This document shows, piece after piece, positions 16,301 to 55,475 of a stretch of DNA of 64,000 bases. Below the pieces are notes generated by a model. The model worked only from the letters and a program-made list of their open reading frames with translations, was not told the origin of the DNA and made no database searches. How positions within the stretch are numbered: position 1 is the stretch's first letter; every line of letters starts with the position of its first letter. Location of the stretch: the NCBI RefSeq assembly GCF_020921035.1, contig NC_063155.1, forward strand, positions 5,565,001 to 5,629,000, read 5' to 3'. The DNA is from Rhodamnia argentea (lineage: Eukaryota > Streptophyta > Magnoliopsida > Myrtales > Myrtaceae). The position numbers were made by a program, and so were the translations under genes.

Positions 16301-19300
16301 GCATGATTCGCCCCTATTTGGTGTCTCAAGGGGTCAATATAATAGCGTATTGTTGCACCATTATGTGCAGGAAAATTCGGCTTTGCAGTGAAGCTGAAAA
16401 CATTGCTTTTTAATGAGGAGGCTTTAGTCTATATTGGCAGCAGCCACAAACTACTCAATAGACATTCAAAAGCTGAAACTGTTTGTGAGCTAACTTTCTT
16501 GACGCCCTAAAATCAGTTGGCAAATACTTCTTGCCATGGTTCAGAACATAGATCAGGTTAATAAGGTATTCCAGTGGGCTGTGGCAATTGGTTAATCCCA
16601 TATTGTTAATTTAAACCATACACCATAAATTGACCAGAATATTTTGGTCAAACTTGAAGCTGTAGGAACTGGGTCAGGCATTGTCTGGTGACTTATACTT
16701 AATGGGATGGCTGCTTTTGCTTCTATATGCTTTATATGTGCAAATGCTTATGCACTTTTTTTACTGACCCTGCTCATGTTTGCTGCGTGGGCATTTATGT
16801 TCTGGGTCATATTTACAGCAAAGCTCTCTATGTGATGGTAAATGATGCTATCCACATCTTATCTCTGAGCGTAGGGTGGAATCACCTCATCAGATCTCGC
16901 TACAAAGGCCCTTGAGGCAAAGTGTGCGAAAATAGTTGGACAAGCTCTAGCTGGTGTTCCTCTATGGCAGTTAGGTCCTGAAAGTAGACATCCAGGAGTT
17001 CCATACATTGTATTCCCAGGTGAAGCTCTATCTTATTTATTTTTACATTTGCACATTCACACATTTAATATATTATCCTCATGCAAGAATTTCTTCTCTC
17101 TTTTCTTAGGTAATGTTGGCAGCAGTACAGCACTGGCTGAAGTCGTAAAATCGTGGGCTCCTCCAGTCAGACTTTCCTCAACAAAAGAGCTTCTCAGGGT
17201 CAGGATCATTGAGATTAGTCTTTTTAATAGTATTAAAACAATATAAGATACATGTATTTTGCATTATAAATAGAATGCAGAAACAGGTCGTTATGCTATT
17301 GGTGCATTCAATGTTTATAACTTGGAAGGAGTTGAAGCAGTTGTTGCTGCGGCAGAGGAAGAACAAAGTCCTGCTATATTACAGGTAGGGCAAATAAACC
17401 TGAAACTTGATTATTCTTCACCTTTTAAGTTTGGCTGATAATCTGATAGCAAAAAGGCTCTGTCATCTGGAAGGATTCATAACGCTGAAGTTTTGTACCC
17501 TGTTACACCTAGTGTTGTAATTTATTCTGCCAAAGCTGACCCTTGTAACTCAAACTTTCTCACTGCTTATTTTCAATGTGTTTCACTTTCTAGAAGCTAA
17601 AAGTTCAAATAGCTAAATTTGACAAATTTTGGCTTTTTTTCATGAAATATTTTGGTCCTTGACAAAATGATTACTTTCCTTTTTCTGTCTTCTTAGATTC
17701 TCAATATTCTTTTTTTAAGTTTGGCCAATAATTCCCCCATTTTTTATGCCCATTTTCTTTGCAGATCCATCCAGCTGCCTTCAAGCAAGGGGGAATTCCC
17801 TTAGTTGCCTGTTGCATCTCTGCTGCGGAACAGGCTAATGTAAGCACATTTCATATCTGATTGAAAAAGAGCAGAACACCAGTACTGCACTTATATGCAG
17901 CGGAAATTCTGCTATATGTGGTGTACAGATAAAATATATTTTTATGCTCTAGTGTAAAATGTAAGTTCTCTGCACAAATGACATTAAATCGAAGAGACCT
18001 TTTACGTCGTTGGTTTGTAGAGATCCTCATACAGTCAAATGTGTCCCAATGATTCGTGGAAGCCTAGTCTGGCATTCTGCTCCGCATAGCCATTTTGCTT
18101 TAATATGTGGATCTAGTGGACATTATATGCTGTCTAACCTGAGTTTATACCGAATATATCTGTTTTGGAATAAAACATGGAACATAGAGAATGTTTGTGA
18201 ATGTATTAGTGGTGCACTGTGGTTGTCTTGTATCATTGGTCTTTCTGGTTCTGTTTTGGGTATTAAGGCACGAGTTCGTAAGTATATGTCCAGTTGAGTC
18301 ACTCCATGAACATTCTACTTCAGCTAATGCAGAAAGTATAGATGAGTTAAACAGGTTTATGAACGTGCTTTGATGCAGGTTCCAGTTACAGTTCATTTTG
18401 ATCATGGAACTTCCAAGGAAGATCTTGTGCAAGCCATTAATTTGGTACATAACTCTCAACACCGAGTCATATGCAATTTTGGCTGGCATAGGGAATGATC
18501 CAGTATGGGGTCCTGAGCTGCAGCATATTCTTTAAAGGAAAGATGGGTTAATCCGTTCACGTGAATTTTCCAGGGATTTCATTCAGTAATGGCAGATGGT
18601 TCACATCTCTCCTTTGATGATAATATCTCCTACACAAAGTTCATATCGTCTTTGGCCCACTCAAAAGGCTTGCTCATTGAGGCTGAACTAGGGAGATTGT
18701 CAGGGACAGAGGATGACCTGACTGTCGAAGATTATGAAGCAAGGCTAACTGATGTTAATCAGGTCAATATTTTTGTTAATATATGTATGCAAGCCTTACA
18801 TTCGTGGTTAAAATGTATTTTCATGAACTGGCCTCTTTAATTTTCAGGCAGAAGAATTTATCGATCGCACTGGTATAGATGCTTTGGCGGTGTGTATTGG
18901 AAATGTCCATGGAAAATATCCTCCTGGTGGTCCAAAGTTGAGGCTTGATTTGCTTAAGGTCTGGAATATTATTACCCTTATGAAAATCTTTAATCATGCA
19001 ATCGCAATGCAGTGGTGGTTAAGACACATCTATATTTTACTTATTTGTGTAGAAAGACTTAAAAGCATCTTTGTGTCCTTTATGAAGAAATATTAGTATG
19101 TATCTTCTGAAGAAAACTAAGTGACATATCCTGAGTGACTATTCAGCCGCTCATAGAACAGTATCTTGCTTATTGCATCCTTGCAAAGCTGGGCTTGCTC
19201 CAAAGCGGACATGCCTCATAAAAAGTATTGATTAGCATTCGCCAATTGCCTAGCCAGAGATCATCCACGACCTTTTTAACTGGCAAAATTTCTGTGACTC

Positions 19301-19760
19301 TTTTAGAAATTTGCAAGTACTAACATGGATTCCATCCTTGCTTCATCTTAATCCGTCAATGTTTCTTTTCCCTAGGACTTGCAATCTTTGACATCCAAGA
19401 AGGGAGTCTCCTTGGTGCTTCACGGAGCTTCGGGCTTGTCTGAGAAACTCATCAAGGTAATTAATTCTGTACAAAATGCGACTTCTTCACAGGCAGATGA
19501 TTCTAAATGGACAATCGTGATGAGCGTGAGAAAATGCTCGGAAACTAACGAAGCGAACTCGAATCATTTGCTTCCGACAGGAATGCATCGCGAGGGGCGT
19601 CAGAAAGTTCAATGTGAACACGGAGGTGCGAAAGGCGTACATGGACTGCTTGAGCGAACCCAAAAAAGATCTTGTCGATGTCATGTCGTCCGCGAAGGAA
19701 GCTATGAAGGCTGTTGTTGCAGAAAAGATGCACCTCTTTGGTTCGGCTGGAAAAGCATGA
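3266..19760 (+). CDS. Fused dehydrogenase-kinase-class II aldolase (At1g18270-type)
   Basis: A 42-exon gene encoding 1373 residues in one uninterrupted frame (4122 coding bases). The order of modules is: NAD-binding 6-phosphogluconate-dehydrogenase-like domain, a second such domain, a DUF1537 four-carbon acid sugar kinase domain, and a class II ketose-bisphosphate aldolase. This is the layout of Arabidopsis At1g18270 (about 1390 residues), to which it aligns end to end from memory. In bacteria the separate enzymes oxidise, phosphorylate and cleave four-carbon sugar acids (L-threonate/erythronate type), so a chained cytosolic catabolic role is plausible but inferred. I chose the ATG at 3266 because MASQDVVSFVGL matches the family N-terminus. 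The TTG in frame at 3257 is not needed. Three introns use GC donors (4689, 13141, 13462). Intron 22 carries two TRIM elements. The four module entries give exon coordinates. Confidence 0.95.
7388..11096 (+). other. Module 2 of the fused enzyme: intact dehydrogenase (residues 286-605)
   Basis: Exons: 7388-7582, 8131-8206, 8482-8562, 8634-8714, 8953-9029, 9110-9164, 9263-9311, 9482-9619, 10208-10289, 10371-10449, 11050-11096. It has the full binding loop IGFIGLGAMGFGMATHLL, the DAPVSGGVKRA substrate motif and GCGAGSVVKMVNQLLAG with the catalytic lysine region. These are the hallmarks of the 3-hydroxyisobutyrate/threonate dehydrogenase family, so this module is the likely active oxidoreductase. 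Exon boundaries parallel those of module 1 at several places (for example the GAG/S and SW junctions), which points to an ancient internal duplication. Confidence 0.9.
11674..11980 (-). mobile_element. TRIM element 1 in intron 22, antisense
   Basis: A terminal-repeat retrotransposon in miniature of 307 bp. Direct terminal repeats lie at 11674-11775 (102 bp) and 11878-11980 (103 bp). Both begin TGTTRGAATATC and end TACTTYAATA on the plus strand. On the minus strand a primer-binding site resembling TGGTATCAGAGC (here TGGCATCAGAGA, 11866-11877) follows one repeat, and a purine tract (GAAAGGGG) precedes the other. A perfect 5 bp target duplication, GTAGG, flanks it (11669-11673 and 11981-11985). 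It looks whole but non-coding. The repeats have diverged visibly, so it is older than TRIM 2. Confidence 0.8.
12165..12453 (-). mobile_element. TRIM element 2 in intron 22, antisense
   Basis: A 289 bp TRIM with two 87 bp direct terminal repeats (12165-12251 and 12367-12453) that differ at only a few sites. On the minus strand each repeat runs from TGTTGAAATAAATAAATA to ATCTTTCA. The canonical plant primer-binding site TGGTATCAGAGC, complementary to initiator methionine tRNA, directly follows (reverse complement of 12355-12366). A purine tract, GAGGGGAAG, directly precedes the other repeat. A perfect 5 bp duplication, AAATT, flanks it (12160-12164 and 12454-12458). It is whole, non-coding and fairly young. 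Confidence 0.9.
12634..17198 (+). other. Module 3 of the fused enzyme: DUF1537 sugar-acid kinase (residues 606-1103)
   Basis: Exons: 12634-12845, 13053-13140, 13342-13461, 13551-13669, 13773-13845, 13949-14068, 14853-14921, 15034-15204, 15299-15346, 15532-15673, 15970-16067, 16875-17019, 17110-17198. It has the N-terminal signature LVVLDDDPTGTQTVHDIEVL and the substrate loop LRGDSTLRGHFPE. The C-terminal nucleotide-binding half has GSYVPKTTKQ, KGGITSSDLATKAL and IVFPGNVGSS. These match bacterial four-carbon acid sugar kinases (OtnK/DtnK family). Introns 24 and 25 begin with GC at 13141 and 13462. Confidence 0.9.
17274..19760 (+). other. Module 4 of the fused enzyme: class II aldolase (residues 1104-1373)
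   Basis: Exons: 17274-17384, 17765-17839, 18379-18444, 18574-18762, 18848-18958, 19376-19456, 19581-19760. It has AIGAFNVYNLEGVEAVV at the start, the zinc-ligand motif HFDHG, the SVMADGSHLSF segment, IEAELGRLSGTED, AVCIGNVHGKY with the second zinc histidine region, VLHGASGL, and the phosphate-binding VRKFNVNTEVR. This is a full-length class II fructose-bisphosphate/tagatose-bisphosphate-type aldolase and should be active. The frame closes with a TGA at 19758-19760. Confidence 0.93.
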
Positions 19761-27387: not shown

Positions 27388-28449
27388 ATGGATAACCAAA
27401 ATGTCCCCGCTCGACTCGCCTACGTCGAATTTCAACTCTTTCAAGTACATTCCGCGCTAGGAGAGTTGTCTCAACAGACAAGGACCCCCGCTATTCCACA
27501 AGCCGTGGATAATGTGCCGCCTCCCGATCTTCAAATAGATGTTGAAAAGCAAAACAATTGGCTTATTGACTTAGAAAGACGATTTGAAGAGATGATCACT
27601 ACATTTGCAGACTTCAAAGCCTCCATAACTCCATTGCTTCCAAATAAAGTCGCACCTACTCCCGAAGATCTTCAGAACCGGATTAATGAGTTGCGTGGGA
27701 TATTGATACGCCTTATGGACCGCGTCAATCAAATTGCTATGGAATCATCATCCCGTTCTGTGTTTGAAACTGCTATAGGTGATCTTGGAAGCAAAGGAAA
27801 ACGACCATACGAAGAGCCCATATACGAAGTCGAGCAATCTCCCCGCTCGAAAAAACAAACCCAAGGATACGTTGAGGGAACCAATTCTATTGTTACCCAA
27901 CCACTTCGGGGTCCCCAAAAGAGGCATTGCAAGCCGGATCTGCCTCATCAGAGTTGCGAATACCAGAAACCTTACATTGAATCGGTTCCAAAGCCAACTA
28001 AAGCTGCTCGGATTGCACCGAAGTCTGTTGGGCCAAAGAAAAAATCCAAACAGTTTACTCCACTTCCACAACTTCTGTCGAAGCTTCTCCCGATGCTTTT
28101 AGAAAAGCGATTGATCGTTAAAGAAGTGCCAAGATATAATGCTCCGAAGCTCAAAGGTTATGATGAGAATAAATCATGCGCCTATCACATGGGGGAAAAG
28201 GGACATAGCACGGACGATTGTGCCATACTCAAGATCAAAGTTCAGAAACTTATTGACAATGGCCTTCTGGATTTTAAGGAAACAGAATCGAACATACAGC
28301 AGAATACTTCATCTAAATATCAAGGAGTAGACCTCGTATATGTTGAAGAAGAGGAAGATAGACTTGATTTCTCGGTTGGCATCCCCAAAATTGCAAGGTA
28401 TTCTAACCGAAACGTCATCATATCCCGAAAGAGTTGGCGGGAGAAGTGA
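27388..28449 (+). mobile_element. Gag-like region of the Tat/Ogre fossil
   Basis: An open stretch of about 350 codons (from the ATG at 27388). Its C-terminal part has the Tat/Ogre gag signature: an FTPLPQLLSKLLPMLL segment, then CAYHMGEKGHSTDDC and a following LKIKVQKLIDNGLL helix. The N-terminal part is helical and charged. It belongs to the retroelement fossil and is not a host gene. Confidence 0.75.
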
Positions 28450-28778
28450 TTCATTGATATGGGAAAGATACCGCATCGGTACGCGAAGAAGCTAGGCCAT
28501 CCGAAGCTGCCATGGACTTTTCAGAATAAAGCGGTTTATGCCGGTTGTTTGCTTTGTGATTGTTTTCATTTTGTCATTTAAATTCATTCCGTAAGAAAGA
28601 CTCTTTGACACCTTGGATCTTGAGCCGTTGGTCCGAGGTGATCTGTCTTGTAAATCGGCCTTATCATTTGAATTTCAATAAATGCATGTGCACGTTTTAT
28701 TAAGGACATGCGGGAATATTCCAAACCAGCCTGATGATGATAATTGTCTTCGATTTTCGAAGACTTGAGGCCTGGGTT

Positions 28779-29904
28779 CATTGTCCTTGACGAAGAGGCT
28801 GAAATGAATTTCGAAGTAGCAAAAGCATCAGTACACGTGAACTTACGATTACTTCTATGAAGAGATAGAGATTATAATTGTATATGGAAGACATTAACCA
28901 TTAATCAAGTAAGTTGCAAAAGTACAGAAACGCTAATCAGCTTGCTCTTTCCAAATGAAAAGACGTTGCATATATGTAAACCTTTCTGCATTTCACTACC
29001 TCTGTCGTACCTGATGCAATCCTTCCGGAAGGTCTCACTTCAATTATCCTATTCCTGTTCAAAAGATCACATAGAACAGCAAAAAGAAGGTTATGTGGAC
29101 AGAAGTTATGCTTTGTATCGCAATTGGATAGTCATGAAAAGCATTTTTACACAAAATAAAGTTACATTCTACGGTAACCAAACACTTCCGTAGGAGATGA
29201 AGTAGAGCCACATGGACACTGCATCTCCGCTACGAACATAAGGAAAAGGGCATTTACTCTTTAAATACTCTAAGCATCCAAAGAAAAGCAATTTCTAATG
29301 TTCCTGATTTAAATGCGGGCAAACATGTAAAACCATAAACAGAAAAAACTTGCAGTGGTATGCCGATGAATTAGTCCTGTAAGGTTAGTCAAAATTAATA
29401 AGGAAAGAATCGTATGAACTTGGTTTCAATGTTCTAAAAGCAAACACTAGGAACGAAGCAATGAAGATCATTCACATTGGCAAACAAAACCTCGAGACAA
29501 GCAAACCAAATAGAGAAAAACGACAGTGAACTTAGAGAAATGAAAACAGCTTACATACACGATCACGATAGGCTTGACGGCACCAACAATTGACTCGACA
29601 AGTCCAGCAGATCCTCCGCGAACCTACAACGAGGAGGTCAAAGAACGATGAGCAACACGATCACCGATTGCTACGAGCCTTCACTGAATCGACCTTGAAT
29701 TTGATTCTCACAGCAATCGGGCAGAGAGAGAAAGAGAGAGTAGAACGTTCTGAGGTACCTGCATGTTGACGGAGCCATTGACGGCGAGGCGAACGCCGCG
29801 GTGAGAAATGGAGGAAGCGGACTTCACGACGATCTTGCCGTCGAGAGGTTCCTGGTGATTCCATCAATGTCCGATCGTGATTCCGATGGAGAATCAAAGT
29901 GCGC

Positions 29905-29946
<42 letters not shown>

Positions 29947-30010
29947 GTACGGAAGGGCAATAGATGCGGCTCGGTCGAGAAAGCTTGATCTCGAGCGTTG
30001 CAGATGACAT
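28779..30010 (-). pseudogene. Truncated VPS26C copy (exons 1-4 only)
   Basis: Exons equivalent to VPS26C 1-4 lie at 29951-30010, 29759-29851, 29559-29623 and 29000-29054. They encode about 91 residues starting MSSATLEIKLSRPSRIYCPS. The splice sites and reading frame of these exons are still intact. The homology stops at 28779, inside what is intron 4 of the full gene, so exons 5-11 are absent. The intact promoter and first exons mean it could still be transcribed into the neighbouring retroelement sequence. It cannot make the arrestin-like C-terminal half. Confidence 0.9.
29907..29943 (+). repeat. (GA)n microsatellite in truncated VPS26C intron 1
   Basis: A pure GA run directly after the exon 1 splice donor region on the minus strand. 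It is the counterpart of the run at about 48988-49027 in the parental copy, and the two copies differ in length. It creates several spurious serine-leucine or arginine-glutamate open frames in both copies. Confidence 0.9.
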
Positions 30011-31144
30011 TGCGAGCTCCGGCGTTGCAGCAAGAAATGGCAGTCCCGCGTCAATGGTGGCAGACTCGGGGACCGGCGTTGATGAGAAGCAAAACGACGG
30101 CGTTTCCACGCAATCAAAATTAAGGAACCGGCCTTGACCGGTTCTTCCCGGTTTTGCATTGTGAACCAGTGAGAACCGGCTCGGACTAGTTTTTAGCCCT
30201 TCTTATTGTACTTTGATTAAATGTAGATAGATACGTTGCAAATGAGTTTCGAACTTGAGAAGCTTGGGATATTCATCAATGCGTTAATCATTATGGGAGT
30301 GTTTTTCAAAAATAATATAGATATTACTTGAAATAACCCTCTAGTTTAGAGTCAACTCTAAAATTAAAATGGTTCGATTTCGGATTGATCACTAATTTCC
30401 AAATCGGGAACCGACTCTAATAAGATATGTTCCAAATTCTTCATTGGAAATCTTCCCATTTTAGAACCAACCACCCTCACTTTTGGCATTGTTATAAAAC
30501 TCTCACACCTTCTATAAAATGATCGATTTTAACTTTAATTTATACCATTCATAACTGAAAGATCTAACCCAATCCCACTAAGATGCTAGCAGCTCGAAAG
30601 TCTCCCTAGATAAAATATGTCACAATTAGATAACTCAGCATAAACTGTTCGGAAGTTTACTCACAATACGAATAAAACTCGGACATCATGAAAAATATTA
30701 GATTAATCACTTTAGCGGTAAATTATGGACCTGTTAGAGCACTGAACATCAAGTACAGATCATATGATCAAAATATGTTATAACGTGCGTATGCTGAACA
30801 AAATCTGTTATTTCAATTGACGAAATTATTTCGACCAAAAAAATTGGCGAAATTATGCTATTTCGGTCGGCATTCTTATTCGTCTCGATCTGGTTGGGCC
30901 GTCAATGCCATAGCCGGATCCGGTCCGTCAAATTTCACGACGAAACCCGGTTTCCGACGCGGCAAAACCTCATTGGCCAGAACCCAGGAACTGACGTGGC
31001 CTCACTGGAACACATACGCACAAACGCGCTCCCCCAAATTCCCATTTAACCCCTGTCTTCACCGTCGACCACCAACCCCCTCCCAAAAATTTCGCCACCG
31101 CACCACCTCCTCCGCCACCCTCCTGCTCACTGATCCGGACCACC

Positions 31145-31714
31145 ATGCGCGATCCGGGTCGCAACCTCCTCGTCTTTCTCCTCCTCCTCTCTCTCTACCC
31201 GCTAGCCCTCACCGCCCGCCCCTTCTTCCTCATACTCTCCCAGGATGACCTAAAGGACGTCTCCGCCGCCTCCCCAGACGAGCTCCTCGACTCCGCCGAC
31301 TGGGACGAGTTCGGCGACTCCGAGTCCCGCTCCGAGGAGGAGTTGGATCCCGGCTCCTGGCGCCCGATCTTCGAGTCCGACGAGCCCCTCACCGTCGGAT
31401 CCGACCCGGAGGAGCTCTATTACTCTGGCGTGTCGAAGATGATGGCCGCCGCCAGCTCCGGCGAGGGGCGGCTGATGGAGGAGGCCGTGTCGGAGTTCGA
31501 GGCCAGCGCCGCCGCGGGCTATGCGCACGCGCAGTCGGCGCTAGGGTTTCTGTACGGCACGGGGCAGATGAGGGATAGGAGCAAGGGCAAGGCGTTTCTG
31601 TGCCACCATTTCGCTGCTGTTGGAGGGAATATGCAGTCTAAGATGGCGCTTGCTTACACTTATATGCGTCAAGATGTGAGTATTAAGCTCCATTGTTTGA
31701 ATTATATGTCATCG
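31145..31714 (+). pseudogene. Truncated HRD3A copy (exon 1 only)
   Basis: The ATG at 31145 opens a frame that matches the full HRD3A exon 1 (ends 31675), with only K for M and C for Y among 177 residues. The splice donor GTGAGT is retained at 31676. About 39 bases into intron 1 the homology ends (31714) and an hAT-like element begins. Read without splicing, the frame runs to 31717 (190 residues). A signal peptide ([15 protein letters not shown]) and the first Sel1-type repeat would be made, but not the rest or the membrane anchor. It is a 5' gene fragment, recent in origin. Confidence 0.9.
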
Positions 31715-33001
31715 TAGTTTTTCAAAAATTTTCCGTGTCGGACACGTGTTGGACTCGGACACGTGTCCGACACGCTGGGACACCGCCGGACTCTTCTCAG
31801 ACACGCGGTCAACGCGTGTCCGAGTCCGGACTCGCAGTCAAACACACGGACACGCGAGGGACTCGCGTGTCCGACGTTAAAATAGTCAAAATACTACCCA
31901 ATTTTGACCTAATTTCTAATTGCCCCCTCTCAGTCGCCCGACTCACCCCTCTCTCTCTCTCTCCCTCTCACGATTGTGGCGTGTACACTGGCCTCTGCCT
32001 CTCGCGACTCGCCACCGTCGCCGGCTTGCATCGCCGGCTTTTGCTTGCGCCGGCCTCTCCCTCTCCCTCTTGCGACTGTCGACTAGCTTTTGCTCACATC
32101 TCAGCTCGCTGCCTTGATCGCCGGCCTCTGTTCGCGCGTCTGCTCTCGCCGTGCCGCGTCAAGGCATCACTCCTCTGCTCGCGCCTCTGCTCGAGACGGG
32201 TTTTGGATCTCCTCTGTTCTCCCTCCTCTGCTCGCACCATTGCCCGAGACGGGGTTTTGGATTTCCTCTGCTCGCACCATCATCTTGGCCTGCGAATCGC
32301 GTACACTCATGTCTCTCCCCCACTTAATTTTACTGTTCTATGTTTTTTTTATTCCACCGTTTCTTGAATTGCTGTCAAAGACCCAAGCTGGTTGCTGGTC
32401 ATAATCTACGTTAATTAGATACTTCAGTCATAACCTACGTTAATTTTACTGGAGGACATTTTGTATTTGCTGGTTATGTTTGATATCTATTTTGGGGGCC
32501 TCTTTGTATGTTGATAGAAAACTGTCTCCGAGGTTTGATAGTAAACAGCTTCATCCTTTTGAAGACCCAAGCCTGTGCTGGATCCATTAAATCGGTCTGT
32601 TAAATTGTTGTTCGAGCCATTTATAAGAACCTTCAATGGTCTGGGTGGGCAACAACTCTTAGAGATCTCAAAACCATATTGAGTTTGTTCAAAATGAAAG
32701 AAAAACTAAAAAGCTTAGGTTTTTCAATGGTGATGTATCGACATGAGTGTATTGAAACACTTTTGATATGCAACACTTTTTTGTATGTTCAACTGGTGTC
32801 TTTGTCTTCTACTCTTCTGTGCATATCTCTAGTTTCGGCATCATGATATATTATTGTTGAAATTATAAAAATAATAATTTATCATATATATATATAAATA
32901 TACATATAATATACAACGTGTTCTAACGTGTCGGAATTTTCTATTTTTTGGGAATTCACGTGTCGGCGTGTCGTGTCGTGTCCCGTGTCCGTGTAACATA
33001 G
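31715..33001 (+). mobile_element. hAT-like non-autonomous element, 5'-truncated
   Basis: This belongs to the same family as the intact element at 49262-50373 but lies in the opposite orientation. The left end lacks the terminal CTAYGTTACACGGAC but keeps the subterminal CCGTGTCGGACACGTG repeats. The right end is complete (GTCCGTGTAACATAG, ending 33001). The first 250 bp and the last 70 bp match closely. The middle is longer and partly different. The 8 bases after it (GTTAGAAC) resemble the GTGAGAAC target of the other copy. No transposase frame is present. Confidence 0.75.
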
Positions 33002-34288
33002 GTTAGAACTGGTCTGGTTCCCGGTTTCACGTAGTTGGACCCAGCAATATCCGGTTCGACTCCCGGTTCCGCATTGAAGCCGGCAATAACCGGTCCGACT
33101 CCCGGTTCCTTGCGCGGAACCGGCCCTTCGTCACTCATCAGTCACCTTCTTTCGTTTGTCTCCGAGCATCGGTCTCAACCCTCCATCAATCGCTCCCTCT
33201 CGCGCTCTCACAATCTCACTGTCTCTCACCCTCCGGTTCGCTCTCGCGCTCTCACAGTGCCACTTCCTGCAGGTGAAATCGAAGCCCATACAACTGGAGA
33301 ACTCAACTCGACAAAGAGAAGATGAAGGCTTGTTGAAGATTTCGAAGGGGGGAGAAATTGAAATTGGGGTTCGCCTTTTGGGGGGGGATTGGAGTTTCGG
33401 TTTCGATTTTCTGTTATTCTCCGACGGGACGTTGAGCGAAGTTTTGAGGGGGGTCAAGTGATTTGTCCGAGAATTTGGACTTGCACTGAACTGTAATTGC
33501 TCAACTGATTTGTGTGCGCTCGCCGTCGTCTTCCACCGCCTCAACGGGCAGCTTTGACGCTCCGTTGCCTTCGATAGTTCGTTTGATGCGATTCAGGTTC
33601 GCTTTCGGTTGAATCTCGGATATTCTTCTCTCTTTTTATTTGTTTGTTTATTATTATCTGGGGGAAGAAGCATGATAATGAGTTATTTTCTTCTACTGTC
33701 CTTAAATTTTTTTTTTTTTTAACCTTTGTTGCTGTGTGATGTAATTGATCTTTGTACATGTTTTTGATACTTTTGATTTACTTTAGTTTGGTTTGACGAT
33801 GATTCGGTCACATTTTCGAAAAACTCCCAACCAATCCAAACAGCCATGCATGAACACTTAGTGAAAAGAACCTTAAGTGTCTGAACTTCTTGATTAGTGT
33901 CTGAACTTGGAATCTCTGGTTTGTAGGCCACGTTCTACTTGCCTCCTAGCGAGCCCCTTTACTTACTTCTAGAATAAAATCTTATGTCATTATGAATGAT
34001 TTTCCTAATGTTGCACGTGGGATAAGGATTTGGGAGAACCCGCGCCGAGCAAGATTGAGAAAACCTTCGACGAGGGATGACACACGTTCCCACTCGACAA
34101 TCTGCTAAACCAGTTTTTCTGACCTCGCTTCTAGACGGTCCCTTAGTTTTGAAAAGCTCTTCCCAACTCTGATTCTAATGACAAACATGCAGTGTACACA
34201 TGAAATAGATGTCTTGCAGAGTGTGTTCAACAATTGGGAATAATGTAGTTCTTTGTTTGCATTGTTGCAGGCTGCCCAAGACAGCATT
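33002..34288 (+). promoter_or_regulatory. Promoter, leader exon and leader intron of the DUF3245-like gene
   Basis: A short GGTTCC-rich stretch (33033-33118) holds an imperfect two-copy repeat of about 40 bp. A C/T-rich tract and a GC-richer transcribed-looking region follow. A splice donor (ATTCAG then GTTCGC, after 33596) and an acceptor (TTGTTGCAG, ending 34270) frame a likely 5'-UTR intron of 674 bp. The start codon lies 18 bases into the next exon. Open frames at 33035-33544 fall in this leader and are not supported. Confidence 0.5.
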
Positions 34289-37508: not shown

Positions 37509-38033
37509 TTAGATACAAACTTTGGTATTTATTTTATCAGCGACCTTCTTCATCATATTCTCCAGGGAAGCTACATAATGCTCTAACTCTTCCACTCCCA
37601 TGCCATCATCAACATCCCCGTCCCACCACATGCCGCCGAAAAGATTCCCGGCAGCTCTTCTCCCTCCGGCTTCGACCGCGTCTCCCTTCACCTCTTTGAG
37701 CTTCGACGCCGCGTCTTGGTACTGCTTCTTGCGCTTGTCAATGGCTTGGGTCGCAGCTGAAGTCGCCGCCTCGCTTGCTCGGGCACCACCTCCACCGGAG
37801 ATGTAACGGTCGATGACGGCATCGGCGGAGGGGTGGCCAAAGACAAAGGGATTGCCGTGGGGCGAGTAGGCGATGATCGCAACCTCAGCACCGCACAGGA
37901 CGGCAAGCTCGCTCGCCTTCCAGAACATGCCCCGGTGACGCTTGGAGAACGTCACCTCGCGCGCGGCTTTGTCCTCGATGATCTTGCATTCAGTTCGACG
38001 GCGACCGAGGGTTTGCCTCTTCGTCTCCGCCAT
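37509..38033 (-). CDS. Type I (M-alpha-like) MADS-box transcription factor
   Basis: A single-exon gene of 174 residues. Residues about 6-62 form a MADS domain: GRRRTECKIIEDKAAREVTF, SKRHRGMFWKASELAVLCGA and the beta strands EVAIIAYSPHGNPFVFGHPS, followed by VIDRY. The GHPS.D.VIDR segment and the lack of introns are typical of type I AGL61/AGL62-like proteins. In Arabidopsis these act in the central cell and endosperm. The 100-residue C-terminal part has a coiled-coil-prone stretch (KRKKQYQDAASKLKEVKGD) and ends HYVASLENMMKKVADKI. The family usually has lysine where this protein has W in the MFWKASEL block. The length is on the short side, but the ORF looks whole. Expression cannot be judged from sequence. 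Confidence 0.9.
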   Translation of the reverse strand: MAETKRQTLGRRRTECKIIEDKAAREVTFSKRHRGMFWKASELAVLCGAEVAIIAYSPHGNPFVFGHPSADAVIDRYISGGGGARASEAATSAATQAIDKRKKQYQDAASKLKEVKGDAVEAGGRRAAGNLFGGMWWDGDVDDGMGVEELEHYVASLENMMKKVADKINTKVCI

Positions 38034-38158
38034 GGCCTCCAGTCTCTGACTACTCTCTCACGAGGACGACAGCTCGGTTTTGCTTCTGAGATTTTTGGAG
38101 GTGAGAAGTGTTATTGAGATTGCAGCAGCTGACAAAAGATAGGAGAAAGCTCGGGGAG

Positions 38159-44522: not shown

Positions 44523-47500
44523 TCATCTGGTGCGAACCAGTTCAAGTGGTAGTGTTTCCATTGCCATCTAAGATAGGTAAAAGGGAGCATTTTTCAAGAT
44601 AGGAGCTCAAGATAAAGCACATAAAACTAAAACAATCCTTTTTCATACCCACAGCCTAGGAGTTCTGGGATCAGACTTGGCCTGCATCTTCGATAGCTCT
44701 GATTGAAAGCTAATAACTATGGCAACTTTGAACTCGATTGAAAATGGTCTGTTTGGAAGATGCAATTTAATGGAAAGTCAATAGCAGTAGTAGCTTCCAC
44801 TGGTCCATAGTAGTTGAAAGAGAAGGAAAGAACAAACGACAACTGCAGATGAATTTTCCAAAGCTGCATGTGAAATGGAAAACAGAAGCCTGACATTCAT
44901 CTATGGTCACAGGTGAAACTATAGTAATCAATATTGTCTTCAACCACAGGGCATTTCAAAAGGTTGTGCAGTGGTCTCTCAGGAATTTCATTTCAAGCCT
45001 AAGGTCCAAGCATTCTCTGTTTGTGTGCTTATGTTGGGGGCCAAGGGGCTAATGCTCAAGTGAAGCTCAATAAAGTCACTCAATCTACTTAAAGCTAAAG
45101 GTTGCCGCATATTTCCAGAATTAACCGAAAGGACTGACTGTAGATATAGATCTTTATGTACAAATTTAAAGTCTCCAGTGCTTGCTCTGGATATCTGAAA
45201 AGAAAATTGAAATTGAACCTAATAAGTGTTGAAAGCAAGATTAACCTGTTCGGTTCACTATGATGCTAATGCTCAATAGTTGTGGAGCTCTCCAATCAAT
45301 TAGATTAATTGTGTACAGACTGAAGGGACCTAAGAATACACAATCACTGTTAAGCTGTGGGGTTTCACTACACATGCTTATGCAGAAAAAGAAGGAGACA
45401 CAATAGTGGTGGCAATGTGGATACGGCAACTCACCCAGCCAAGGTCGTTGGACAAGTTAAAAGGCGAGGAAGAATAACGTAGATGGGCAACATCAAATGC
45501 CGAGACACATCTCCATCTGCTATCTAGTACATGTAGAAGGACAATGTTAAGGAAGATTTTGATCCAGACATATACATCTATTTAGTCAAAATTTTACACA
45601 CCTGTGTTGTTTGTACCAAGGACGTTTCAGTCACAATTCTATCTCCAAAAAGAACCGACTCAATTCGAAGTATGTGTATATCAATAGAGTGAATTGGAAC
45701 TGCAGATGTTTCCACGATAAGCTCTCCACTAATTGGATCTGACAGAGCACACTGAATGGACAACTTTCCAGTCACTCGAAAACCACCTGTACATCATCAT
45801 CTTCCACGTAAGATGTTGGATCAGGCAACTGTATATTTGCTTAGATATAACAGCAAAACCAATAAGGATTTTACAAACGATCGTAGCACAACTTGCCCAT
45901 CCTGTCACTTTTCATCCAAGAGTGCTTGAGGAAATAAATGAGCATAGTACAATGTTCTATCTCACCATTGACTATAGTTTAGAATTATGCTAAAAGACAC
46001 TGAAAGATAGATACATATAGAAGTTTGCCTGATTTCAACTCAGGAAGCAATGGATGTCTTTGGGTATCCTGAGTAATGTAAAAGATAACCATCTCAGGAG
46101 AAGCTGGTTGATCAAGAAGCTCGGCTGAAAAAATTAACAGAGGAAGCGGTGGATTAGATCCTACCCACAAGTTATCATTGCCAAAACTGATTTAGAATCA
46201 ATGAGGAAGCATGTCATACCCTTATCAGTTTCTAAAATGAACTCCATTGTGGTATACAAGGATTTGTGCAGATACCCTCTTGTTACATCTGCAGTTAGCA
46301 AGTACTGTAACAGATTTAATGAATATCAACCATGAAAGTAGTCCCTAAATTCAGGCAGAAATGAAAACATTTCCAGAAGGGGAAATGAGAAATCGAATAA
46401 CTAAATGGTCCAGAAGAAGGGAGCCAAGTGCAAGCGTGCAATTTGGTTGCCTATCCTTTACCATTTTTCACCATGCGCCAACTGGCCTTTAGAACTCATT
46501 CATGAAAAGACATGATGCATATATAAGATTACCTTATCATGTCTACCAAATTTAAAAGCTCGTACAATTACTACGACAAATGAGGAAAGAGAAGGACACA
46601 TACAGCATATGATCAAACTCATCAGTCACCTTCATAGAATAAATATCAAATTTTCTTTTTGATCCTATGATCCTTTACCCATGCTCATACATCAAGCATC
46701 TAATCTTATTATCTGCTATCCAATCCCAACTACTACGATATATGGTAATTACCACGAAGAGCCCCCATCTAATGTCAGGTTAGCGCAGAGAATTACTTAT
46801 TTCGACAGATGTGTTGTGCCGTGATGGTGATTCAGGCCAAGACGAACACGGAACAATAATGATCCAGAGCTTCATTCCCTAACAAGTTGCTTAAATCTAA
46901 AGATCATGAAGATATTTTCCGACCAGCAAAACTTGCATGGATTTTATGCTTGTACCCAAATTAGGATCAAAACAACATCTTATATAGTTCGTATTATTCT
47001 TCACAAGCAAACAAACTTGGAAATAACCTATCAATAAACAGTAGACAAGACAAAGAACTTCATAAATTCATCATGTCTATGTATGAAAGACATAAAAACG
47101 GAAGTCTTTCTTTCAAGAAAGTTAGCAATTCAATGACGAAAATTAGACAAATACAATGAAATTTTGATAGAGAGATCTCTTTCGGAAAAATAACTAATTC
47201 AGCATTTTCTAGCCTTTTGTAGAACGTGAAAAAAAATTCATGTCCACAAAGGCTCCAACCAGGATTACATCCCTTGCTTTTGGGTAGCAGCATATAATTC
47301 TAAATAATGTATCTATCTACAATAAGATACAACAGTTACACAATGCAAAAGTCATACAGAAGCCGTCTTTAAATGTCATATGGGAATCTGCAAATGATAT
47401 CTGTTCCATGTTTTATCAAATATGATCAGGTACATGATCAAATTATTCACCTGGATATTGATATCAGCTCCATGAAAGGTCTCATAAAATCTATCATGAT

Positions 47501-48985
47501 TGTCATTTCCCGATTGTTTCAGAGTTACAGAAAATGGTATCTGCGATGAACAACACACAAATAAGTTGAAGGCTTTCAAGAATTTCATTTCATAAGTCAA
47601 ATCTGATAAGGGTAAAAATGAGGGCGACTATATGGGCCAATAATCAAAGCACATAAGCAAAAACTGGGCTATTTGTACTCTGCTAATATATTAGCACAAG
47701 ACATCAACAAAATAGGAAAATCTACTCTGATTAATATATCAGCAGTAGCAAACTCCAAAAAACCATGTTGTGTTGCTCTCAAAGACTCGTATCCAATATA
47801 GAAAATAGAGTGAAGTATAGAAAAAAGCTTTGCATGTTATACTAACAAATATTTAACAACATTGTCCTTAACGAAGAGGCTGAAATGAATTTCAAAGTAG
47901 CAAAAGCATCAATACACGTGAACTTACGATTACTTCTATGAAGAGATAGAGATTATAATTGTATTTGGAAGACATTAACCATTAATCAAGTAAGTTGCAA
48001 AAGTACAGAAATGCTAATCAGCTCGCTCTTTCCAAATGAAAAGACGTTGCATATATGTAAACCTTTCTGCATATCACTACCTCTGTTGTACCTGATGCAA
48101 TCCTTCCGGAAGGTCTCACTTCAATTATCCTATTCCTGTTCAAAAGATCGCATAGAACAGCAAAAAGAAGGTTATGTGGACAGAATTTATGCTTTGTATC
48201 GCAATTGGATAGTCATGAAAAGCATTTTTACACAAAATAAAGTTACATTCTATGGTGATCAAACACTTCCGTAGGAGATGAAGTAGAGCCACATGGACTC
48301 TGCATCTCCGCTACGAACATAAGAAAAAGGGGATTTACTCTTTAAATACTCCAAGCATCCAAAGAAAAGCAATTTCTAATGCTCCTGATTTAAATGCGGG
48401 CAAACATGTAAAACCATAAACAGAAAAAACTTGCAGTGGTATGCCGATGAATTAATCCTGTAAGGTTAGTCAAAATCAGTAAGGCAAGAATCGTATGAAC
48501 TTGGTTTCAATGTTCTAAAAGCAAACACTAGGAACGAAGCAATAAAGATCATTCACATTGGCAAACAAAACCTCGAGACAAGCAAACCAAATAGAGAAAA
48601 ACGACAGTGAACTTAGAGAAATGAAAACAGCTTACATACACGATCACGATAGGCTTGACGGCACCAACAATTGACTCGATAAGTCCAGCAGATCCTCCGC
48701 GAACCTACAACGAGGAGGTCAAAGAACGATGAGCAACACGATCACCGATTGCTACGAGTCTTCACTGAATCGACCTTGAATTTGATTCTCACAGCAATAG
48801 GGCAGAGAGAGAGAGAGAGGAGAACGTTCTGAGGTACCTGCATATTGACGGAGCCATTGACGGCGAGGCGAACGCCGCGGTGAGAAATGGAGGAAGCGGA
48901 CTTCACGACGATCTTGCCGTCGAGAGGTTCCTGGCGATTCCATCAATGTCCGATCGTGATTCCGATGGAGAATCAAAGTGCGCGC

Positions 48986-49029
<44 letters not shown>

Positions 49030-49093
49030 GTACGGAAGGGCAATAGATGCGGCTCGGTCGAGAAAGCTTGATCTCGAGCGTTGCAGACGACAT
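44523..49093 (-). CDS. VPS26C: VPS26C (DSCR3-like) retriever/retromer-type subunit
   Basis: Eleven exons on the minus strand: 49034-49093, 48838-48930, 48640-48704, 48081-48135, 47451-47540, 46220-46304, 46029-46124, 45602-45786, 45435-45523, 44649-44748, 44523-44567. Their 963 bases give 320 residues in one frame. The protein has the double arrestin-like fold family blocks EIKLSRPSRIY, GKIVVKSASSISHRGVRLAV, RFYETFHGADINIQYLLTAD, EMVIFYITQDTQRHPLLPEL, SIDIHILRIESVLFGDRIVT and a C-terminal LPLELVRTR. It matches plant At1g48550. VPS26C acts in endosomal cargo retrieval with VPS35-type and VPS29 partners. Intron 7 uses a GC donor. An in-frame ATG at 49192 could add 33 residues. The 5' part is duplicated at 28779-30010. 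Confidence 0.95.
48988..49027 (+). repeat. (GA)n microsatellite in VPS26C intron 1
   Basis: A GA run in the 103 bp intron 1 of VPS26C, starting a few bases after the donor GTACAC. On the transcribed strand it is a CT tract that fills much of this short intron. Confidence 0.9.
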
Positions 49094-51341
49094 TGCGAGC
49101 TCCGGCGATGCAGCAAGAAATGGCAGTCCCCCGTCAATGGTGGCGGACTCGGGGACCGGCGTTGATGGGAAGCAAAACGACGGCGTTTCCACACGATCAA
49201 AATTAAGGAACCGGCCTTGACCGGTTCAGTTCCCGGTTTTGCATTGTGAACCAGTGAGAACCTATGTTACACGGACACGGGACACGACACGCCGACACGT
49301 GAATTCTCAAAAAGTAGAAAATTCCGACACGCTGGGAGACGTTTTATATTATATGTATATTTTGATATATACACGATAAATTATTGTTTTTATAATTTCA
49401 ACAATAATACATCGTGATGTCGAAACTATTATTAATCTCCTCCTTAGAAAGATCTCACAAAATATATCGGGTGTAGGCAAAACAAAATCATATCTTGCGA
49501 TAAAAAAATATATCATGTCAATAATTCAATTACATTTCATTTCAATAATCCATAAAACTTGGAGGGACAAAAAAAAAAAAATTCACGTAAGACAAAGACA
49601 CAAGTCGAACATACAATACGGTTTTGAGATCTTTAAGAGTTGTATGTCATATTATCAAGTGATATGTCCAAGCCGATTATGATCGCCTTATTCAATCAAT
49701 AAAGACAAAAGGCTAAAAGTGGGAACAAGACGGGAGCTGGGAGCAAAATTAAGTGGGGGAGACAGATGGGCGTACGCGATTCGCAAGCCAAGATGAAAGG
49801 CGGGTGAAATTGAGGAGATCCAAAACCCTTGTCTTAAGCGGTGGCGCGAACAGAGGAGATCCAAAACCCCCCTCTCGAGCGGAGGCGTGAGCAGAGGAGG
49901 GGAGCAGAGGAGGGATGCCTTGAGGCGGCGCGGCAAGAGAAGAGGTGCGAGCCGAGGCGCGAGCAGAAGGCACGAGCCGAGGTACGATTGAGGCGGCGAG
50001 CCGAGGCGTGAGCAGAAGCTAGTCGACGGTCGCGAGAGGGAGAGGCCGACGCGAGTAGAAGTCGGCGACGGCGGCAAGTCACGAGAGGCTAGTCGACAAT
50101 CGCGAGAGGGAGAGGGAGAGGGAGAGGTGAGACCGGCGACCGAGATGGATGAGTGAGAAATTAGGTCAAAATTGGGCGTTTTGCCTATTTTAACGTCGGA
50201 CACGCGAGTCCCTCGCGTGTTCGTGGAGTTGACCGCGAGTCCCGACTCGGACACGCGTTGACCGCGTGTCCGAGAAGAGTCCGGCGGCGTCCCGGCGTGT
50301 CGGACACGTGTCCAAGTCCGACACGTGTCCGACACGGAAAATATTTGCAAAACAACGAGTCCGTGTAACGTAGGTGAGAACCGCCTCGGACTAGTTTTTA
50401 GCCCTTCTTATTATACTTTGATTAAATGTAGATAGATACGTTGCAAATGAGTTTTGAACTTGAGAAGCTTGGGACATTCATCAATGCGTTAATCATTATG
50501 GGAGTGTTTTTAAAAAATAATAGAGACATTACTTGAAATAATCCTCTAGTTTAGAGTCAATTCTAAAATTAAAATGGTTCGATTTCGGATCGATTACTAA
50601 TTTCCAAATCAAGAACCAACTCTAATAGGATATGTTCCAAATTCTTCATTGGAGATCTACCCATTTTAGATTCAACCACCCTCACTTTTGGCATTGTCAT
50701 AAAATTCTCACACCTTCTATAAAATGATCAATTTTAACCTTAATTTATATAATTCATAACTGAAAGATCTAACCCAATCCCATTAAGATGTTAGCAGCTC
50801 GAAAGTCTTTCTAGATAAGATATGTCGCAGTTAGATAACTCGGTATAAACCATTCAGAGGTTTACTCACAATACAGATAGAACTCATACTTCATGAAAGA
50901 TACTAAGTTAATCACTTTAGCGGTAAATTCTGGACCTGTTAGAGCACTGAACACCAAGTATATGATCAAAATATGTTATAACGTGCGTATGCTGAACAAA
51001 ATCTGTTATTTCAATTGACGAAATTATTTCGACCAAAAAATTGACGAAATTATACAATTTCGGTCGGCATTCTTACTCGTCTCGATCTGGTTGGGCCGTC
51101 AATGCAATAGCCGGATCTGGTCCGTCAAATTTCACGACGAAACCCGGTTGCCGACGCGGCAAAACCTCATTGGCCAGAACCCAGAAACTGACGTGGCCTC
51201 ACTGGAACACATACGCACAAACGCGCTCCCCCAAATTCCCATTTAACCCCTGTCTTCACCGTCGACCACCACCCCCCTCCCAAAAATTCCGCCACCGCAC
51301 CTCCTCCTCGGCCACCCTCCAGCATACTCATCCGGACCACC
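49094..51341. promoter_or_regulatory. Shared divergent promoter region of VPS26C and HRD3A
   Basis: The two start codons point away from each other. They are 2248 bp apart here and 1134 bp apart in the duplicate, which lacks the hAT-like insert. The HRD3A side has a GC-rich leader of about 300 bp, and the start lies in CCACCATGCG. The region next to VPS26C is rich in GGAACCGG words. The strong conservation between the two copies reflects recent duplication, so it does not reveal regulatory elements. Confidence 0.5.
49262..50373 (-). mobile_element. hAT-like non-autonomous element with 8 bp target duplication
   Basis: 1112 bp. The terminal inverted repeat is CTATGTTACACGGAC at the left and the reverse complement of CTACGTTACACGGAC at the right. 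A perfect 8 bp duplication, GTGAGAAC, flanks it (49254-49261 and 50374-50381). The segmental duplicate keeps the unoccupied site (GTGAGAAC once, at 30169-30176). Both ends are packed with GGACACG/CGTGTCC subterminal words, as is common for hAT transposase-binding regions. No transposase is encoded. An open stretch of 220 codons (49688-50350, minus) is discussed in the findings. Confidence 0.9.
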
Positions 51342-54300
51342 ATGCGCGATCCGGGTCGCAACCTCCTCGTCTTTCTCCTCCTCCTCTCTCTCTACCCGCT
51401 AGCCCTCACCGCCCGCCCCTTCTTCCTCATACTCTCCCAGGACGACCTAAAGGACGTCTCCGCCGCCTCCCCAGACGAGCTCCTCGACTCCGCCGACTGG
51501 GACGAGTTCGGCGACTCCGAGTCCCGCTCCGAGGAGGAGTTGGATCCCGGCTCCTGGCGCCCGATCTTCGAGTCCGACGAGCCCCTCACCGTCGGATCCG
51601 ACCCGGAGGAGCTCTATTACTCTGGCGTGTCGAAGATGATGGCCGCCGCCAGCTCCGGCGAGGGGCGGCTGATGGAGGAGGCCGTATCGGAGTTCGAGGC
51701 CAGCGCCGCCGCGGGCTATGCGCACGCGCAGTCGGCGCTAGGGTTTCTGTACGGCACGGGGCAGATGAGGGATAGGAGCATGGGCAAGGCGTTTCTGTAC
51801 CACCATTTCGCTGCCGTTGGAGGGAATATGCAGTCTAAGATGGCGCTTGCTTACACTTATATGCGTCAAGATGTGAGTATTAAGCTCCATTGTTTGAATT
51901 ATATGTCATCATCACCTATAAGCAGATGGTCCATCTTTAATATCAATTCAACAAATACTGCCGTTTGCATTAGCTGTAGATGGTGTTATTAATTTGACGT
52001 TAAAGCTTTTGGTGTCTTCATTTCAAAGAGTAGATTACAAGTTGAATTTGTTGTTTGGATGCGAGGCTGATGTGGGTTGCTCGTAACATCTTAAGAGTTA
52101 GCTTAGTAGACCCTGTGAAAGTGGCTTTCGATGGACAGGAAGTTCGTAAGCTTTCCCTTGCAATTCTCACTACGATCACGTTTCTGTTATTTAGTAATTC
52201 TGGACTTATATGTGGGAAAATGAATTTGTTTATCCATGTGTTGTGGGAAGAATTTGGACACTGAAGAAAGTAGTAGAATTTGTTTTAAGATGGTCGTTTA
52301 AGTCGATGAGCTGATCCTCATTCTGATGGCTTTACAGATGTATGAAAAAGCAGTCAAGCTGTATGCCGAGTTAGCAGAGGTAGCTGTAAATAGCTTTTTA
52401 ATCACGAAGGAGTCTCCTGTTATAGAACCAATTAGAATTCACAATGGAGCTGAGGAGAATAAAGAAGCTCTGAGAAAGTCTCGAGGTGAGGACGATGAGG
52501 ACTTCCAGATATTGGAGTACCAGGCACAGAAGGGGAATGCAATTGCAATGTACAAAGTGGGGTTGTTCTATTATTTTGGCCTGAGAGGATTGAGGCGAGA
52601 CCATAAGAAAGCATTGTCATGGTTTCAAAAGGCTGTGGAGAAGGGCGAGCCAAGGTCAATGGAACTTCTTGGGGAGATATATGCTAGGGGAGCTGGAGTT
52701 GAGAGGAACTATACAAAGGCTTTTGAGTGGCTAAAGCTTGCCTCCAGACAGCAGCTTTACTCGGCTTATAATGGAATGGGTTATCTATATGTCAAAGGTT
52801 ACGGAGTGGAAAAGAAGAACTACACTAAGGTAAATTGGATTGATTGTTTCATAAGTGGATTTGTGTTAATACTTCCATTATATGTGAAAATTGGATCTCG
52901 GTTACCCTTGGCAAAGATGTTACTATTTGGGAACATTACTGTTACTATTTGGAAACATTAGTGTTACTGCCTCGTCTCATATCCCATGACTGCTTTGACT
53001 CTTGTTTCCTCAACACATTCAATGTACTCAAGTTCTTCTCATTAACTCATTAGTTTCTCTCTCTTGGATTACAATGTTGTTTGTTAATTGGAAAATTTTC
53101 TATGTTATGACTAAATGTTCTTGGAAAAGACAATTGCATGAATTGCCGACTCAAGGCCTCTAAGCTTTGACTACGAACTTCCCATATGCCCGTTTTATGT
53201 TTCCTTTAAATTTGTCTTTCCTCCTACAGTTGGTCTCTGATTCTTGACTTAGCTACATTAGGATAATTGTAGCAGGTGGTGCCAAGCAAATTTTTGTATG
53301 TCATCACTAGAATAAGTACTTTGGGAGTTACTATTTATTCGTTGATCACAACATTTCGTGATTGTTTTCTTCTTAATTCATGAAATCCTCATTCCTGTGA
53401 CTTGATAATCTTTTTCCTAGGCTTGTTCATTTGGTGCATTTGATTCGATTTGGCAAATGAGACATGGGTTCATAAAGAATCAACTTCTGAGCACTAGGTT
53501 TTCCTGTGTACATTCACAGTCCTTATTTGTGATGGCTGTGATGAGATCAATTACATATTATTTGCTCCTGACTTATAGTAATTCATTGCAGGCAAAGGAG
53601 TACTTTGAGAGGGCTGCTGAAAACAAGGAGGCTGGCGGGCACTATAACCTGGGGGTAATGTATCTTAAAGGCATTGGGGTAAGAAGGGATGTGAAGCTAG
53701 CGTGTGAATACTTCATAGTGGCTGCCAATGCAGGCCAACCCAAGGCATTCTACCAGCTAGCAAAAATGTTCCATACAGGTGTAGGGCTCAAGAAAAATCT
53801 TGCCCAGGTAGAACCTAAATACTTTGATTTGTGTGTTAGCAACTGTCTATCCTTGCATCATGCATCTATATATATGTAATATACTTTGAAATTTGTGGAT
53901 ATGCATGCATGTGTATCCTATCTTCACTTTTTGCTTAGTAATACGTAAAGATTGCAATGCCATACTTATCCTGTTTTCATATGTAAGGTCATATATCGAG
54001 CTGAATATTTGTAAGCTGAATTATATTTTCAGGCTACTACATTGTATAAGCTAGTTGCAGAGAGGGGACCGTGGGGCTCTTTGTCAAGATGGGCCCTTGA
54101 ATCATATTTAAAAGGCGATGTGGGCAAGGCATTCCTCTTGTACTCGAGGATGGCTGAGTTGGGCTATGAGGTGGCACAAAGTAATGCTGCATGGATTCTT
54201 GACAAGTATGGTGAGCGCAGCATGTGCATGGGGGAAGCAGGATTTTGCTCAGATGCAGAACGACACCAACGATCACATTATTTATGGTGGCAAGCTTCTG

Positions 54301-54763
54301 AGCAAGGCAACGAGCATGCTGCTTTGCTGATCGGAGATGCATACTATTATGGACGGGTATGTATTTCCAATAGATTGACTATAGGAAAGGATAAAAGATA
54401 AGTTTGTCTTTAGTGGACTCCTAACCTCTGGATGGAGTAGTTCAGGTCTACGGACCTGGATCTCACTTGAGTTGCCTTGGCTCTAATTGATCCTAATTGT
54501 TTTTGTCCTCTCTTAGGGTACCGAAAGAGATTATGAACGTGCAGCAGAGGCTTACATGCATGCGAAATCCCAATCTAATGCACAAGCCATGTTCAATCTT
54601 GGTTACATGCATGAACATGGCCAAGGTCTTCCTTTCGATCTTCATTTAGCAAAACGCTATTATGATCAAGCCCTTGAGAATGATCCTGCTGCAAAACTGC
54701 CTGTTTCGCTGGCCCTCACAAGCTTATATATACGGAAGAACTACGCAGACAGCTTCCTTGTAA

Positions 54764-54794
<31 letters not shown>

Positions 54795-55475
54795 TGTTTT
54801 TTTTAATTCAGAAAATATGTGTAGGCAAGAGTTATACTGCTTCAAGGAGGATTTCTTGCACCTGTTGGCAAATAGCCATCTTTGGCCCATAATTTTTGGG
54901 TTCCATATTAATGGATGGATGTGAAGAATTGCATCTACGCACGTTCATTCTTTATTTTCTGGTTTCCTTCCTATTTTTTCTAGTGCCACTAAATAAGCAA
55001 GTCTTGACCCTGGATTCCATGGGAAAGTACCGAAGAGACTTAAATCACTCTGGATTCCGCGGGAAAGTACCGAAGAGACTTAAATCACCTCGTTGATTAA
55101 CTCTGAAAAATAGTTTGGTATGAGGATCATACCTGTTGAGCTAGTATGTGCTGATAGTTGATTAGGGAGACACAGCTAGCTGATTAATTAATGTTTCTCT
55201 TGTTCCTAGGTCTGAGTCTGAATGATTAATATGGTGATTGGCTTCCTTTTCAGGTCAATTTGATTGATTCACTGCCTGAGGCTTATCCGAAGGTGGAAGC
55301 GTGGGTAGAAAACGTGATTTTGGAAGAAGGAAATGCCACGATACTCACGCTATTCGTCTGTCTACTTACCGTCTTGTATCTCCGTGAGCGGCAGCGCAGG
55401 CATGCCGCGGCAGTCATTGGTGAGGTTGGAGGGCAACGGCAGCCAATTGAGCCTGGTGTTCCTGGACTCAATTGA
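51342..55475 (+). CDS. HRD3A: HRD3A / SEL1L-type ERAD adaptor (EBS5)
   Basis: Six exons (51342-51872, 52338-52829, 53592-53807, 54033-54356, 54517-54759, 55254-55475) give 675 residues, against 678 in Arabidopsis At1g18260. An N-terminal signal peptide ([20 protein letters not shown]) is followed by an acidic stretch and about a dozen Sel1-like repeats. Examples are [40 protein letters not shown] and [22 protein letters not shown]-terminal membrane anchor ([14 protein letters not shown]) is followed by RERQRR. The protein sits in the ER membrane with its repeats in the lumen. It partners the HRD1 ubiquitin ligase and passes misfolded glycoproteins to it. Divergent to VPS26C and tail to tail with POT1. 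Exon 1 is duplicated at 31145. Confidence 0.97.
55011..55088 (+). repeat. Tandem duplication, 40 bp unit, in HRD3A intron 5
   Basis: TGGATTCCATGGGAAAGTAC and its continuation (55011-55050) is repeated at 55051-55088 with two or three changes. It lies about 170 bp before the last exon. Confidence 0.85.

Follow-up and report, generated by a model that had tools for sequence, protein, structure and literature searches.

Partial duplication of the divergent VPS26C and HRD3A gene starts in Rhodamnia argentea, probably by break repair at a DNA transposon

The 64-kb stretch of Rhodamnia argentea contig NC_063155.1 analysed here (positions 5,565,001 to 5,629,000, hereafter the window) contains the divergent gene pair VPS26C and HRD3A together with a second copy of the region in which both genes begin. 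This raises the question of how a fragment with two 5' ends and the spacer between them came to lie so close to its parents, and whether it has a function. Our analysis suggests that this partial gene-pair duplication probably arose at a DNA transposon, by gap filling or the repair of a break, and that the fragment itself is most likely non-functional and under no selection.

The duplicated block and its parental gene pair

Self-BLAST and a repeat search paired the block with 47860-49262 and 50374-51910 in direct orientation, the parental copy being split by an insertion (Table 1), and with a BLAST E value of 0.0 chance similarity can be excluded. The second copy of the shared gene-start region described in the initial annotation therefore exists as a direct copy about 20 kb from the parental pair (start-to-start distance 19,079-20,205 bp), with a right end one base earlier (31713) than first given. 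Apart from searches of family and structure libraries, sequence comparisons were confined to the window, in which the block is the sole long duplication and no homology extends beyond its 2.9 kb on either side; both edges are abrupt and the flanking sequences unrelated. The copies are identical at 2,816 of 2,924 aligned positions (96.3%; 108 differences) and are separated by five indel events, none of them coding. Differences at noncoding positions (99/2,120) are spread unevenly, 45 falling into a single segment of 440 positions, while the 54 among the remaining 1,680 (3.2%) make it fair to call the duplication recent. The duplication itself is confirmed as real, and an assembly artefact or misplaced haplotype is scarcely credible given the unrelated sequence at both edges, the 3.7% divergence of the copies, and a transposon site that is empty in one copy and filled in the other.

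Table 1. Coordinates of the features in and around the two copies (positions in the window)
Feature	Position	Strand	Remarks
Duplicate block	28779..31713	.	Direct copy of 47860-51910 minus the parental insertion; from BLAST, alignment and exact ends
Parental counterpart of block	47860..51910	.	Includes element A
Parental VPS26C	44523..49093	-	11 exons, 320 aa, ATG to TGA; spliced by script
Parental HRD3A	51342..55475	+	Exon 1 at 51342-51872; TGA after 55472 ends the later exons
Duplicate VPS26C exon 1	29951..30010	-	Begins with ATG
Duplicate VPS26C exon 2	29759..29851	-	
Duplicate VPS26C exon 3	29559..29623	-	V here, I in parent
Duplicate VPS26C exon 4	29000..29054	-	Copy stops within intron 4
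Duplicate spacer, ATG to ATG	30011..31144	.	1,134 bp, uninterrupted
Duplicate HRD3A exon 1	31145..31675	+	M147K, Y153C; donor GT intact
Open frame with HRD3A intron 1 retained	31145..31717	+	190 aa
Transition-rich segment	30263..30702	.	45/440 positions differ, 38 transitions; parental counterpart 50468-50907
Empty target site, one GTGAGAAC	30169..30176	.	In duplicate
Left target-site duplication of element A, GTGAGAAC	49254..49261	.	
Element A	49262..50373	+	1,112 bp, inverted ends CTATGTTACACGGAC / CTACGTTACACGGAC; splits parental spacer
Right target-site duplication of element A, GTGAGAAC	50374..50381	.	
Element B	31712..33001	-	Inverted relative of element A; far end intact
8 bp GTTAGAAC beside intact end of element B	33002..33009	.	
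Retrotransposon gag-like ORF left of block	27388..28446	+	Cys-His knuckle-like end, by eye

Structure and family searches bore out the gene names: the parental VPS26C model matched only VPS26C in the PDB at E ≤ 0.001 (E 3.2e-57), and the hand-joined parental HRD3A protein contained Sel1 repeats (E 1.5e-50), with SEL1L as a match at E 1e-82 and chains of the yeast Hrd3 type at E ~1e-23. The VPS26C model requires a GC-AG intron after exon 7 (46029, minus strand). Both parental genes look complete and to this extent the pair may be called intact, but the parental spacer is interrupted by element A, giving an ATG-to-ATG distance of 2,248 bp in the parent versus 1,134 bp in the duplicate.

Coordinates and splice sites likewise upheld the proposed content of the block, namely VPS26C exons 1-4 (273 bp), HRD3A exon 1 (531 bp) and the spacer, and all GT/AG sites and reading frames are kept in the duplicate, as had been claimed. 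VPS26C exons 1-4 differ from the parent at four positions with one residue change (I/V), and HRD3A exon 1 at five positions with exactly the two residue changes first reported, so that nine of 804 coding positions differ, six synonymously and three nonsynonymously. A phmmer search with HRD3A exon 1 against the PDB matched 17 distinct sequences, and among the five alignments listed three were SEL1L chains carrying Y at position 153 and Q at position 147. The cysteine at position 153 of the duplicate is thus probably the derived state, while position 147, where the copies have M or K, gives no polarity.

The neighbourhood of the pair holds several further genes. A MADS-box ORF (37512-38057, minus strand; SRF-TF E 1.7e-20) lies in the interval that separates the duplicate from its parents, and an aldose 1-epimerase ORF (43115-43765, plus strand; Pfam E 5.4e-53) just past the 3' end of VPS26C. 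Exon ORFs at 7385-19757 (plus strand) belong to a large multi-domain gene with 6-phosphogluconate-dehydrogenase-like NAD-binding, NBD_C and class-II aldolase domains above cut-off and a sugar-binding SBD_N domain below it; a fused aldolase gene of similar kind presumably lies next to HRD3A in Arabidopsis. The sole Rfam match in the window, the C/D-box snoRNA snoR113 (RF01420, 86 bits; 62380-62476, minus strand), is located near POT1-like exons, for which Pfam POT1 scored 27.1 bits at 61151-61381 against a cut-off of 29. Two inverted repeat arms of 104 bp (1897-2000 and 2528-2631, 92% identical) may represent the two termini of a small foldback or TIR element.

Insertion of element A relative to the duplication

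In the parent, the 8-bp sequence GTGAGAAC stands on both sides of element A, whereas the duplicate has it once. As the site in the duplicate is empty, element A probably inserted after the duplication, which is also the simplest order of events, and the duplicate would then probably preserve the older, pre-insertion layout of the promoter. With comparison made within the window only, this order rests on one empty site.

The well-aligned ends of element A and its relative, element B, carry 32 differences in 368 positions, so that neither can have been copied from the other recently. None of three ORFs searched in element A and two in element B matched a Pfam family. An 8-bp target-site repeat is shared by the hAT superfamily and element A, but the hAT terminal consensus has A at position 2, with which the element A ends CTATG and CTACG do not fit; Mutator elements, with a target-site repeat of 9 bp, differ from element A in this length. 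An 18-base pattern of the element end had no exact match in IMG/VR, and a literature search with the motifs of the element returned one match, by its title a paper on a pseudorabies-vectored vaccine.

Precise excision of element A from the duplicate would produce the same appearance as a site that was never occupied. In passages of PMC4423477, precise excisions are described as indistinguishable from insertions by comparison, a share of 83% precise excisions is cited for mPing in Arabidopsis, and eight of 94 excisions in rice are reported to have left both target repeats.

Origin of the block

The two edges of the block differ in what adjoins them. On the right, homology to HRD3A intron 1 ends at 31713, from where the sequence is that of element B, which here misses 15 bp that element A has at the same end; with element A as a proxy for the missing end, the dinucleotide TC is common to the HRD3A side and element B. 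On the left, the gag-like ORF gave nothing in Pfam at E ≤ 0.01 and one insignificant match at E ≤ 1. The initial annotation had the two promoters facing transposon DNA, which is present on the right (element B, 31712-33001) and only likely on the left. Inspection of the sequence revealed no target-site repeat across the two block edges. When the 15-bp element end was searched for with up to four substitutions, matches with zero or one mismatch occurred only at the two ends of element A and the outer end of element B; none lay close to the left edge, where homology starts at 28779, the nearest match left of the block being at 26198, one of nine scattered four-mismatch matches in the window.

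These edges are best accounted for by a repair patch. A break at the end of element B would have cost the element its last 15 bp and the target-site repeat on the broken side, and repair would have copied 2.9 kb, reaching from intron 4 of VPS26C into intron 1 of HRD3A, with sequence about 20 kb away in cis as the template. The copy would have been joined to element B through about 2 bp of microhomology and on its other side to the retrotransposon-like left flank, with element A inserting into the parental spacer afterwards. The right end falls inside element B, at a distance of 15 bp from the terminus as judged from element A, which supports this sequence of steps, and the block is a copy of a distant segment whose donor is retained, as a patch should be. 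A processed retrocopy was rejected, as the spacer, VPS26C introns 1-3 and part of intron 4 were copied as well.

It is known from plants that repair moves gene fragments near transposons, and Wicker, Buchmann and Keller (2010) reportedly described such movement in plants by break repair with filler DNA. The block resembles this filler in being a foreign segment that adjoins a transposon border and apparently has little microhomology there; in the present case it includes introns. According to parts of PMC4423477, 58 of 94 transposon excisions in rice brought filler DNA, but at lengths of 1-123 bp, far below the 2.9 kb of the present block with both 5' ends of a divergent pair, which counts against the comparison. 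Sections of PMC8277862 attribute single-copy Pack-TIRs in animals mostly to gap filling, with a bias to templates in cis and microhomology in 190 Pack-TIRs (67.6%; median 2 bp). The cis template and the fusion to a TIR element are found here, as is, with element A as the proxy, a right junction with roughly 2 bp of microhomology, whereas in our case the element stands on one side only. The left flank does not represent the second half of element B, which also speaks against a patch. A further counterpoint is that gap-filling breakpoints in animals tend to the interior of the element rather than its ends (same sections of PMC8277862), the present one being 15 bp from the end of element B.

Two other origins have to be weighed against repair. 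The block might have been carried by an A/B-family DNA transposon, in the manner of a Pack-MULE or Pack-TIR, or by a Helitron, and its position next to element B would fit, as Pack-MULEs likewise carry gene fragments beside a TIR-type element. In those, however, terminal and target-site repeats bracket the cargo, while around the block terminal inverted repeats are not present on both sides, only the ends of element A and the outer end of element B matching; GTTAGAAC is absent in both orientations from 28301-28900, so that no target-site repeat surrounds the unit; and element B is truncated at the very junction. With element sequence at the right edge only, the block does not look like a standard Pack-MULE. 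Helitrons start with TC after an A and end in CTRR, and by eye the junction sequences have no such ends. We therefore regard transposon capture as unlikely, even though TIR elements do capture gene fragments according to parts of PMC8277862. The direct orientation and closeness in cis would also suit a once longer tandem or segmental duplication that was formed by unequal crossing-over and that deletions and insertions later eroded to this part. As homology outside the 2.9 kb is missing on either side within the window, this would require two independent erosions, one of which stopped just inside element B, and we consider it quite improbable.

Divergence of the copies and possible output of the duplicate

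The segment of raised divergence differs from the rest of the noncoding sequence in its transitions (38/440 versus 34/1,680, P ~1e-9; 4.3 times more per site) and not in its transversions (7/440 versus 20/1,680, P = 0.48), the contrast between the two classes alone giving P = 0.023. It was chosen after seeing the data, and permutations, which cover the placement of the segment and treat neighbouring sites as independent, were as extreme in none of 5,000 runs with a fixed width of 440 positions and none of 2,000 with several widths; the former scan delimited 30263-30702 and the multi-width transition scan 30403-30702. A corresponding scan for clustered transversions was not unusual, with 612 of 2,000 permutations equally strong. 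Gene conversion acting on an older duplication is disfavoured as an explanation of the uneven divergence, since transitions are raised in the segment, transversions are not, and none of the five indels lies inside it.

The changes in the segment resemble deamination of methylated cytosine, with both copies alike, C or G being kept in the duplicate only at 20 sites and in the parent only at 18. Pooled over the copies, 9/34 CG, 4/25 CHG and 25/223 CHH sites changed in the segment, and 15/642, 4/408 and 23/1,351, respectively, elsewhere in the block (coding sequence included). Preferential methylation decay of the duplicate is not supported, as CG was lost in the parent only at 13 sites and in the duplicate only at 11. 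Against the deamination reading, the observed/expected ratio of CpG in the segment is no more than mildly low (duplicate 0.90, parent 0.66; 1.02-1.27 in the remaining noncoding-rich parts), and the ends of elements A and B, which are expected to be methylated, exhibit only a modest excess of transitions (21, with 11 transversions).

It has been reported in parts of PMC8042742 and PMC5257005 that truncated FOLT2 copies in Arabidopsis express siRNAs silencing FOLT1, and the present locus likewise combines a truncated duplicate with an intact gene. By analogy with this precedent, FOLT-like trans-silencing by the duplicate is possible: its transcripts would give rise to small RNAs and DNA methylation on both spacers. 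The transition-rich segment with its load split between the copies would agree with such a functional silencer. For FOLT, siRNAs and methylation are reported in those parts, compared with a transition-rich segment here, as read from the sequence. A hairpin precursor in the segment is not supported, its folding having no advantage over that of shuffled sequences (z 0.60 and 0.45), and the two copies, being direct and not inverted, form no mutual hairpin. Any methylation may moreover predate the duplication, the segment possibly being a repeat of older date that was already methylated, and the weak transition excess at the ends of elements A and B counts against silencing as well. A functional silencer is thus very doubtful in our view, and it is highly improbable that the duplication brought RNA-directed methylation to both spacers and that the C-to-T load over 440 bp is the scar of trans-silencing.

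Firing of two promoters in the duplicate, protein fragments made from it and small RNAs acting on the parents are hypothetical. The 190-aa HRD3A frame ends at a TAG created at the junction with element B and had no Pfam match at E ≤ 0.01, and the VPS26C frame with intron 4 retained comprises 111 aa. The 91-aa VPS26C fragment stayed below the Pfam cut-offs for both Arrestin_N (23.8 bits, cut-off 24.9) and Vps26 (18.6 bits, cut-off 27). Rfam placed no known RNA within the block, and no tRNA was found. With approximate site counts, the nonsynonymous share of 3/9 disfavours neutrality of both copies (P = 0.0095), as is expected with the parent under constraint, and is not clearly at odds with a neutral copy beside a parent under constraint, for which omega 0.1 was assumed (P = 0.074); the former result leaves room for constraint on the duplicate, too. 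Unbroken frames are expected at such a young age, and the duplicate is probably a young, inert repair patch.

Literature searches found no work naming both HRD3A and VPS26C and, on duplicated bidirectional promoters, only items unrelated by title. The locus amounts to a natural experiment, in which one chromosome has, within 20 kb, a divergent spacer that a transposon has split and a copy of it with the empty site. The pair allows a direct test of the effect of the insertion on the shared promoter, and silencing of parental genes by a fragment that bears their promoter could be tested on it as well. Being direct repeats, the two copies could also recombine. About 20 kb would then be lost, and with it the MADS-box gene, the aldose-epimerase gene and what remains of VPS26C, while HRD3A would stay whole.
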